Shown here piece by piece: positions 20,060 through 23,562 of a stretch of 64,000 bases of DNA; positions within the stretch are counted from its first letter, which is position 1; every line of letters begins with the position of its first letter. Source of the stretch: Thermoprotei archaeon. GTDB taxonomy: Archaea; Thermoproteota; Thermoprotei; QMSL01. The translations under genes were made by a program, and so were the position numbers. The notes below the pieces were generated by a model. The model was not told the origin of the DNA, ran no database searches, and worked only from the letters and a program-made list of their open reading frames with translations. The stretch covers positions 18,800 to 82,799 of the forward strand of contig QMSP01000007.1 of NCBI GenBank assembly GCA_003650925.1. The letters are read 5' to 3'.

Positions 20060-20368
20060 TTGAACTCGAAGAGGCTGGAGCCTGAGGTGTATGAAGGCAG
20101 GCTGATAAAGGTTCACCTAATGCCTGGATGTATCTTAATAGAGGTCAGGTCATCTGAAGAGGCCTATCATGGATTGAGCATGGAGGCCACAGGCCTTTAT
20201 ATGCTGGAGTATGATGACATATTGAATGTGAAGATAGAGAATGAAGAAGTAGTGCTTTTACTCAGAGATGGATCATCGCTTAGGCTTGAAGTGGACAGGC
20301 CCATAGAGCTATACAGCAGGATAAAGCATATATTGGCTAGTATTGAAACCTTTAGAGGTAGAGGCTAG
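20060..20368 (+). CDS. hypothetical protein
   Basis: ORF with coding-like composition, overlaps next gene. Confidence 0.5.
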   Translation: MNSKRLEPEVYEGRLIKVHLMPGCILIEVRSSEEAYHGLSMEATGLYMLEYDDILNVKIENEEVVLLLRDGSSLRLEVDRPIELYSRIKHILASIETFRGRG

Positions 20369-20957
20369 GAGCTTGCAAGAGGTTAGCAAGCTGGTGGCTG
20401 GGGCCGCTATAATGGGCTCTCTAGCCGTAGTACTCACCTTTGCGGGTCTAGAAATCCCTTATCCTCCACTGCCATACCTCAAGTTCGATCTAGCCGAAAT
20501 ACCCTCAATAGTGGCTCTAGTCATGTATGGTCTAAGATGCTCCTTTCTAGTAGCCTCAATACACTTCCTAACCTTAGCCTCGCTTAAAGGGCTTCTTGGT
20601 CCCTTCATGAAGTTCCTTGCAGTGATTTCCACCATAATCGGCTTCTATGTTGGAGAAAGGGCCTTGGGCTCCTTAGCACCTAAGGCACTCGTACTCCTTA
20701 GCATGCTCATAGCCATGATTGTAAGAACTCTTGTCATGACAGTTGCAAACTATGTGCTCCTCATATGGGTGAGTCCAGGATATCTCACGTTTGCCATGGA
20801 ATGTCTTTCAAATGTCCTAGGCCTGAACATACAAGGCGAGGTTCATGGCCTGATCTTAGTTCTTCTATTCACAGGCATATACAATGCTATCCACACAATA
20901 ATGAGCATAGTACCTGTACTTCCTCTCATGAGGATCCTAAGGAGAGTTAGGCTGTAA
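20343..20957 (+). CDS. ECF-transporter S-component-like membrane protein
   Basis: Polytopic; LTFAGLEIPYPPLPYLKFDLAEIPSIVALVMYGLR typical of ECF S components. Confidence 0.72.
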   Translation: MKPLEVEARSLQEVSKLVAGAAIMGSLAVVLTFAGLEIPYPPLPYLKFDLAEIPSIVALVMYGLRCSFLVASIHFLTLASLKGLLGPFMKFLAVISTIIGFYVGERALGSLAPKALVLLSMLIAMIVRTLVMTVANYVLLIWVSPGYLTFAMECLSNVLGLNIQGEVHGLILVLLFTGIYNAIHTIMSIVPVLPLMRILRRVRL

Positions 20958-21031: not shown

Positions 21032-21128
21032 ACTTGATCTTAGCGGTAGTAGTACAAAAGGTTTCACTAGGGCTAAAATTCAAAGTCTATATCCAAAATC
21101 TATCTAACTTTGATATAGGTGCCTTGGA

Positions 21129-22346
21129 TTGCTAGCCGAAAGCCTTGAAGTAATCATAAGACAGCAAGATGAGATAATTCCCTGTACCATTGGTGATCTA
21201 GAGCACCTACTCAATAGAGGAGATATAGAAGTATTGACTGGCTCAGGCTATTCTAAGCTCATAAGGCTAAAAAAGTGCCTTCAAGACCACTACATCGAAG
21301 TGCTTCTGGAGAATGGCATCAGAATACGAGGCTCAGATTCACTAGCAGTTGAAACACTTGAGGGTCCAGTCAGCATAGGTAATCTTAGAAGAGGAGACAT
21401 GCTTCTCCTCAAGATCCCTCACATGACAGGTGACTTCAAAGCGTTAAATCTCCTCATGGTCATTGATAAAATCCCTCCTTGGCTTACTAGATACTTGTAT
21501 GTGGATGGACTTTCATCTACCTTGGATAAAGCGCTTAAGGTCATGAATTGGAGGAGCATAGCTCTCCTCCTAGGAATGAGGATCTCTAGGACTACATATG
21601 AGTGGTTAACTAGCGGCTATCTTCCTCTAGCCATGTTCAAAGGTCTTTTGTCAGAGTTAGGAGTTGAGGTTGACAGTCTTGAGGAACTAACTCTTAAACT
21701 AAGAAGAGGTAGAACTCAGATACCTCTATTAATAAAGCCTGATGACGACTACATGAGGCTGATATCATACTATGTAAACTGTGGAGCCTACTCTGAACTA
21801 CAGCTGGATAAAGGTAAACTCACCTTTATTGTACACGATAGAGAGTCCCTCGATAGGATAATAGATACCATGGACTCCCTCAGAGTATCTCATCGCATAG
21901 TGAGGATGCCCAAGGGCAGATTTAGAGTTAAGCTGAACAACAAGACCCTCTACATATTGTTCAGGTGGATTCTTAGGATACCTCTGGTTCCTACTAGGAG
22001 AAGGATACTACATCCGCCTCTCTCAAGCCTCTCCGAGAGAGCACTAGCTCGCATAATGAATCAGATCCTGGAAGTAAATGGCCTAGTCACATCTAGGATA
22101 GGTAGTGAGCAAGTCTTTGAAGTAAGAGCAAAGGGTATGGCCCTTGACATCATGAGACTGAAGTGGTATGAAGGAATTAAGACTAGGCTATCTAAGCTTG
22201 ATGGCCGCATGATATTGAATATACTGCCTGAGAAGGAGGATTTCCTATTGACCGTGGAGAATGTAAGGGTTGTCAAGGATAAGAGCATTTTGCTTTATGA
22301 GCTGCTGGTTGACTCCTCTGAAGGCGTACTAGCGGTCGACATCTGA
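21129..22346 (+). CDS. standalone intein-like protein: Hint-type N-terminus, degenerate LAGLIDADG-like core, block-F/G-like C-terminus
   Basis: SLEVIIRQQDEIIPCTIGDL...HYIEVLLENGIRIRGSDSLAVETLEGPVSIGNLRRGDMLLL; YMRLISYYVNCGAYS; VENVRVVKDKSILLYELLVDSSEGVLAVDI. Confidence 0.7.
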   Translation: MLAESLEVIIRQQDEIIPCTIGDLEHLLNRGDIEVLTGSGYSKLIRLKKCLQDHYIEVLLENGIRIRGSDSLAVETLEGPVSIGNLRRGDMLLLKIPHMTGDFKALNLLMVIDKIPPWLTRYLYVDGLSSTLDKALKVMNWRSIALLLGMRISRTTYEWLTSGYLPLAMFKGLLSELGVEVDSLEELTLKLRRGRTQIPLLIKPDDDYMRLISYYVNCGAYSELQLDKGKLTFIVHDRESLDRIIDTMDSLRVSHRIVRMPKGRFRVKLNNKTLYILFRWILRIPLVPTRRRILHPPLSSLSERALARIMNQILEVNGLVTSRIGSEQVFEVRAKGMALDIMRLKWYEGIKTRLSKLDGRMILNILPEKEDFLLTVENVRVVKDKSILLYELLVDSSEGVLAVDI

Positions 22347-22852
22347 ACTTCCTCGCCTAGCGCTCTTAGCTGCTCCTCAAGCTCCTGTCTAAGCTTCTCA
22401 TAGACCTCTTCGCTTACCTTACCCTCCTCCTTAAGTTTTTCAAGCTTAGCTAATCTCTCCTTTATTTCCTTCACTGTGGTGCTGACAAAGGGTAGTTTTG
22501 CCTGGAGAGCGTGTCTCATGTAATTCTTATCCAGTTCTTCCAACCTGCTCTTGATGTTGTTGAGTATTCTCTCAACCTCAGATATCTTATTCTTCAAGTC
22601 CTCAACCATTTCAGTAAGCTCCTTCTCCTCTATGAGCCCTATGTTATGCCTTATGGCAAGCTCTTTTATCTCATCATTGTACTTCTCCACTAAGCCTGTG
22701 TATTCTGAGATCTTCCTCATGACCTTTGTCCTATCTGAGATCCATGAATTTAAGGATCTTCTGACGGCCTCCTGATATTCCCTCCACATCCTTTCAAGAC
22801 GTTGTATCTCAGCTTCATACCTATTTAGAAGGACTTCAAGCTCTTCACTCAA
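22295..22852 (-). CDS. coiled-coil protein with SHOCT-like C-terminal motif
   Basis: Heptad-rich; LAKLEKLKEEGKVSEEVYEKLRQELEEQL. Confidence 0.7.
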   Translation of the reverse strand: MSEELEVLLNRYEAEIQRLERMWREYQEAVRRSLNSWISDRTKVMRKISEYTGLVEKYNDEIKELAIRHNIGLIEEKELTEMVEDLKNKISEVERILNNIKSRLEELDKNYMRHALQAKLPFVSTTVKEIKERLAKLEKLKEEGKVSEEVYEKLRQELEEQLRALGEEVQMSTASTPSEESTSSS

Positions 22853-22860
22853 GCTCTCAC

Positions 22861-23562
22861 CTAGCCCATTATTATGGCATAGTCTTCCTCAAGCTCCTTC
22901 TTGAGCTTCTCATATACCTCTTTCTCTATCTTACCTGCCTTGTACAGCTCCTCTAGTTTAAGAAGGCCGAGCTTTATCTTGCTGGGAGATGGTCTAGCGA
23001 AGGAGGGCCTAACTCTTCTATAATGAGGTTCAAGCATGGTATCTATTCGCCTTATGATATTATCAAGCTCATCTCTATCCTTCCTAAGCTCCTCAAGTGT
23101 TCTATTCAGATCATCAATTAGCCTTTCATAGATATCACCATCGATCATGCCCAGCTCTCTCCTGGCCTCAACTTCATTGAGCTCAGTCTCATAATCCTTT
23201 ATAACTCTATTCATGCTGGACAGCTTGCGCAAAAGCTCCTGTCTATACTTGTGCCATTCCTCTATGACCTTTATCGCCTCCTTCTCATATCTCCTCCACA
23301 TATTGTCCAGGCTACTTATCCAGTTTTCTATCTCCTCTACCCTCGTATAGGGCTTCTCCTCTTTAACCACCACTTCCTCCTTCTCCTCTACCTCCTCCTT
23401 TACCTCCTCCTCTTTTCTCTCTTCCACGATCTCCAGTTTGAAGTAGGGGCACTCACTATATGTCGCAAGACAGGGAGCTATGAACGGATTCACATCAGAG
23501 CCAGTCTTTAGGCACTCATAGCTACCATCAGTTCTTGACCTTAAGTAGGGGCACACGCTCAT
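22861..23562 (-). CDS. Cys-rich N-terminus plus coiled coil, tandem paralogue of the adjacent gene
   Basis: MSVCPYLRS..CLKTG..CLATYSECPYFK; LLKLEELYKAGKIEKEVYEKLKKELEE. Confidence 0.7.
   Translation of the reverse strand: MSVCPYLRSRTDGSYECLKTGSDVNPFIAPCLATYSECPYFKLEIVEERKEEEVKEEVEEKEEVVVKEEKPYTRVEEIENWISSLDNMWRRYEKEAIKVIEEWHKYRQELLRKLSSMNRVIKDYETELNEVEARRELGMIDGDIYERLIDDLNRTLEELRKDRDELDNIIRRIDTMLEPHYRRVRPSFARPSPSKIKLGLLKLEELYKAGKIEKEVYEKLKKELEEDYAIIMG

Follow-up and report, generated by a model that had tools for sequence, protein, structure and literature searches.

Inteins are usually regarded as parasites of host genes, which either splice or get lost. Among domesticated inteins without exteins, the well-known one is yeast HO, which has relatives named WHO. 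Both HO and WHO are intein-derived and lack exteins and motif G, and HO is a domesticated protein (PMC7282813). Degenerate relatives of homing endonucleases have also been described. WhiA, for instance, combines a LAGLIDADG domain devoid of catalytic residues with an HTH (PMC3781837), and the LAGLIDADG domain of the PhoVMA intein lacks both active-site aspartates (PMC8966425). No free-standing or orphan archaeal intein was described in the literature searched, the coverage of which was incomplete.

A candidate for such a protein lies in a 64,000-nucleotide stretch of a Thermoprotei archaeon contig (QMSP01000007.1), hereafter the window. An ORF of 405 aa with a TTG start codon occupies positions 21129-22346 of the forward strand. 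A preliminary description, made from the sequence alone, had proposed an orphan intein-like protein at this place, either a relic or domesticated, and the peptides it quoted were located within the ORF. A Shine-Dalgarno-like AGGTG (21117-21121, forward strand) lies 7 nt 5' of the TTG, and an in-frame TGA (21111-21113), six codons upstream of the TTG, closes the frame. Likewise, in an orthologous locus (L007), GAGGAGG precedes by 6 nt an ATG at the position equivalent to the window start. An upstream inverted repeat (CTATATCCAA/TTTGATATAG, 21087-21118) was considered as an operator and rejected, as it was equalled by 24 of 100 shuffles. Further upstream, positions 20343-20957 encode a membrane protein whose match to the substrate-specific component of an ECF transporter is just at the Pfam cut-off.

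The family consists of three sequences, one of them a fragment. The genomes behind them are all drafts, including at least two MAGs. The two orthologues (L002/L007 and L003/L008) share 26% identity with the window protein and come from Thermoprotei MAGs that belong to the same order but to a different family. The complete one, L002/L007, is found in genome G003 (record JAGGUS010000117, 'Thermoprotei archaeon'). On its own, the window protein has no Pfam match, and elsewhere its matches to inteins and homing endonucleases are marginal (E 0.012 for an intein-containing Tes model, E 0.064 for PDB 2dch, a putative homing endonuclease). L002/L007 matches the NCBIfam model intein_Nterm TIGR01445 (E 0.0018), the consensus intein CatC (PDB 6dsl, E 6.3e-4) and the DP2 PolII model NF011303 (E 1e-4), the matched part of which we take to be an intein. 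The profile of the three sequences matches 6dsl (2.9e-6) and, weakly, PI-PkoII (0.24). When 401 Thermoproteota genomes were searched, the best matches outside the family fell in intein-bearing genes. All but one are inteins, in genes presumed from the match translations to be Tes, NrdD, MCM, HerA and Top6B; the lone exception is a weak match that contains stops. Pfam assigned Intein_splicing and LAGLIDADG_3 to each of the three inteins that were checked (two Tes, one NrdD).

The intein resemblance claimed in the preliminary description is not due to chance. In hhalign comparisons with a profile of eight inteins, the window protein alone aligned end to end (P 1.5e-14 local, 1.6e-19 global), and the family profile gave a local P of 2.3e-16. 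The controls with the family profile, a reversed target and ten column-shuffled queries, gave P values of 0.22-0.83. The separate segments were also significant, namely the N-terminal Hint part (5e-5), the middle (7e-6) and the first LAGLIDADG half (8e-7). The last 100 aa alone were not (P 0.2), and aa 389-405 are antisense to the neighbouring gene; the likeness to blocks F/G suggested earlier is thus weak. Blocks A, B and F can be recognized through the full-length homology and the TIGR01445 match of the orthologue, block F weakly. As judged by these profile comparisons, the ORF represents, over its entire length, the relic of an archaeal intein with Hint, HTH-like and LAGLIDADG parts, without exteins. 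Its closest relatives are the inteins of Tes, NrdD, MCM and HerA genes, with Tes_L053 scoring best. In a tree built for the source intein, the family forms a clade (99/98) on long branches, with no supported sister. By score, the Tes inteins are the nearest.

Other inteins were seen in the genomes compared. Matches in short ORFs were considered as further free-standing members and rejected, as those inspected were either cut by contig ends or ordinary inteins (ribosomal protein S12, RtcB, XPB). The genome of the window carries a canonical-looking intein of 330 aa in an anaerobic ribonucleotide reductase (L050:1162-3891, G000:C31), running from S1 to HN and with both LAGLIDADG acids present. 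In G001, one intein lies at the Walker A motif of a secretion-type ATPase (L052:1839-4430, C33) and has a degenerate endonuclease (GYYLARG) and intact splicing ends, while another intein-bearing gene (L051:2112-3496, C17) is apparently broken into several frames. Members of a different family of the class (G019 and G035) have inteins in their ribosomal protein S12 genes (L061:694-2691 and L062); these inteins show an HTH-like motif in the late part of their endonuclease region (RVSRATVYKWLKG).

Within the window protein, the N-terminal Hint part covers aa 1-95 (21129-21413; segment P 5.3e-5). An HTH-like segment with the pattern WRS..LG....RT.Y.WL..G..PL follows at aa 138-182 (21540-21674; P 3.3e-4 against an MCM intein). 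It is conserved between the orthologues and common to NrdD and MCM inteins. Together with the linker, it is the best-kept large domain (32% vs 20% in Hint), and AlphaFold modelled its four helices with more confidence than any other part (pLDDT 66-78). The first LAGLIDADG half (aa 183-301, 21675-22031) is basic, with 23 K/R vs 12 D/E, and its predicted secondary structure, alpha-beta-beta-alpha-beta-beta-alpha, agrees with the LAGLIDADG fold suggested by its profile match. The second half, placed by alignment, is shortened (aa 302-360, 22032-22208). The two AlphaFold models, built from a three-sequence alignment, were poor (pLDDT 44 and 37) and were used as evidence for secondary structure only; Foldseek with one of these low-confidence models returned nothing significant. 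The relationship to Hint and LAGLIDADG proteins is borne out by profile comparison; the folds themselves are putative, no confident model having been obtained.

The alignment shows the loss of the residues on which splicing and DNA cleavage depend. The start methionine of both full-length copies aligns without gaps to intein residue 1 (MLAESLEVII in the window protein and MLLGETGLVL in L002, vs CLPGDQEILV in the intein). The ORF begins at intein residue 1, as had been proposed, but Ser5 is not that residue: a methionine stands where C, S or T is normally found. The TxxH of block B reads GSDS in the window protein and TPDH in L002. Block G (HN) is missing in all three copies, and the window ORF ends at about block F, so that the absence of the terminal HN noted earlier extends to both orthologues. 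In the LAGLIDADG motifs, the acidic residue is replaced by Cys in motif 1 (RLISYYVNCG; Ser in L002) and by Asn in motif 2 (RIMNQILEVNG; Ser in both orthologues). Among the sequences covering each motif, the acid is missing in 2/2 for motif 1 and 3/3 for motif 2; the loss first noticed in one motif thus concerns both. With the splicing set (C/S/T at position 1, TxxH, HN) and the nuclease acids lost, the protein is expected, from its residues, neither to splice nor to cut DNA by known mechanisms.

The gene is present in three of the four genomes of its order that were searched, with one match per genome, and in none of the 77 other genomes of the class in the search. The same two relatives were returned from 85,488 genomes scanned with one peptide pattern, a search of limited sensitivity. 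No relative was found in the viral contigs, phages and plasmids searched, giving no sign of a mobile carrier, and PHROG matches were weak and uninformative. A search for orthologues at the same locus, recommended at the outset, was successful. All three copies are convergent with the same coiled-coil gene (CC1, 22295-22852, reverse strand), which is found in 4/4 genomes of the order and marks the orthologous locus. The 3' ends overlap by 52 bp in the window, where the last 17 codons (aa 389-405, 22295-22346) are antisense to the 3' end of CC1, and by 46 bp in each of the other two. The 5' neighbours of the complete copies differ, being an ECF transporter in one and a phosphomannomutase in the other. 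In the fourth genome, G001, both coiled-coil genes are present and the ORF is missing; the latter is therefore non-essential there. As it occurs in two families, the simplest history would be its presence in the ancestor of the order and its loss in G001. The coiled-coil genes are themselves tandem paralogues (22295-23562, 28% identity) conserved in 4/4 genomes of the order; the second has an N-terminal Cys-rich stretch, and one orthologue of the pair has a weak CdvA-like match.

Several comparisons address selection on the frame. Between L002 and L003, codon position 2 differs at 32% of sites and position 3 at 63% (Fisher P 1.4e-7), with a pN of 0.36 against a saturated pS of 0.77, and the result is unchanged when the antisense overlap is left out. 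Between the window and L002, the values are 43% and 69% (P 4e-13). No stop is observed. Were the divergence neutral and as fast as at position 2, 16.8 would be expected, and all 2000 simulations contained at least one. As conservation is much stronger at position 2 than at position 3, purifying selection on the protein is shown at the codon level. The proposed dN/dS comparison thus yielded purifying selection via codon positions and no finite ratio, synonymous sites being saturated. The family nevertheless diverges more quickly than the neighbouring gene, L002 and L003 being 47% identical where their neighbours reach 72%.

The rival explanations have to be weighed against these data. A true intein, with its extein overlooked because of a frameshift or an assembly error, would explain the intein homology, taken alone, and has next to no probability. 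The upstream TGA closes the frame with no coding continuation before it, the 3' side is taken by an antisense gene, the orthologues have different complete 5' neighbours, and HN is absent throughout. The orthologous loci refute this reading, and a continuous extein was found nowhere. An active free-standing homing element, a WHO/HO-like nuclease homing at the 3' end of CC1, is very improbable. Its position at a gene end, its patchy distribution and the lack of exteins and block G, as in WHO/HO (PMC7282813), would suit such an element. Nonetheless, both LAGLIDADG acids are missing in the copies, and no related copies exist elsewhere in the genomes. A WHO-like element that would have duplicated a fragment of its target was also rejected, as the tandem coiled-coil paralogue occurs in the element-less G001 as well.

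The losses of both active sites, the fast divergence and the missing gene in G001 might also point to a decaying relic without function, in which the stops are simply still to come. This seems improbable, as the frame is intact in both families despite a divergence (26% identity) at which about 17 stops would be expected, the codon-position asymmetry is strong and the start signals are retained. A domesticated protein whose Hint or LAGLIDADG scaffold would bind other proteins rather than DNA deserves more consideration, though it is still rather unlikely. The strongest conserved stretch, K.LYI.FRWI..I....R.....PLS.L (aa 272-301), lies outside the catalytic motifs, and the role of the degenerate LAGLIDADG domain of WhiA is likewise unclear (PMC3781837). 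The retained HTH-like segment and the basic first LAGLIDADG half speak against it; both point, by inference, to DNA binding, and the chances that the protein would work in this way appear slightly better than even.

The free-standing, extein-less intein with a dead LAGLIDADG centre that had been postulated is supported by these results. The ORF is not an in-frame insertion in a host protein; like HO, it is a separate gene without exteins, at a fixed locus and under purifying selection. Between the relic and the domesticated protein initially envisaged, the orthologues with the same losses and the selection on the frame favour domestication over a fresh relic, and a selected, domesticated, extein-less intein is very probable. 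As a whole, the data are best explained, with reasonable confidence, by an escaped and domesticated intein that is likely a non-cutting DNA-binding factor. An archaeal intein with Hint, HTH-like and LAGLIDADG parts may have left its host gene and become a gene of its own at the 3' end of CC1, in an ancestor of this Thermoprotei order. The start codon would have taken the place of intein residue 1, and a stop would have removed block G. The splicing and cleavage residues are lost, yet purifying selection still acts on the protein. Through its HTH-like segment and basic LAGLIDADG scaffold, it could bind specific DNA without cutting it, and might act as a regulator or as a factor binding DNA at particular sites, much like WhiA in bacteria. 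Whether a whole intein, no longer able to splice or cut, has been turned into a regulator that binds specific DNA sequences is evenly balanced; it would be the archaeal equivalent of WhiA and a second, independent intein domestication besides yeast HO. A doubly inactive yet selected archaeal intein gene would mean that an entire Hint-endonuclease scaffold may be retained for uses other than splicing or homing. It also offers a testable case of the passage from selfish element to host gene.

Compared with known systems, the protein shares its domain order and full-length homology with the archaeal Hint-LAGLIDADG inteins (Tes, NrdD, MCM, HerA; PF14890 and PF14528). Those inteins, however, sit in host genes, start with C or S, end with HN (SN or GN in two Tes inteins) and mostly have the acidic LAGLIDADG residues, whereas the window protein is free-standing, starts with Met and lacks both HN and the acids. 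PhoVMA is similarly nuclease-dead, but is still embedded in its host protein. With yeast HO and WHO, the window protein has in common its origin from an intein, its separate extein-less gene and the absence of block G. HO and WHO retain an active nuclease and a C-terminal zinc finger; the archaeal protein has lost the acids and has no zinc finger. The likeness to WhiA, a domesticated protein with a degenerate LAGLIDADG domain and an HTH, is one of architecture. WhiA is bacterial, has no Hint part and carries its HTH at the C-terminus, in contrast to the archaeal protein, which has kept its Hint part. The window protein combines features of WhiA and of HO/WHO and equals neither.
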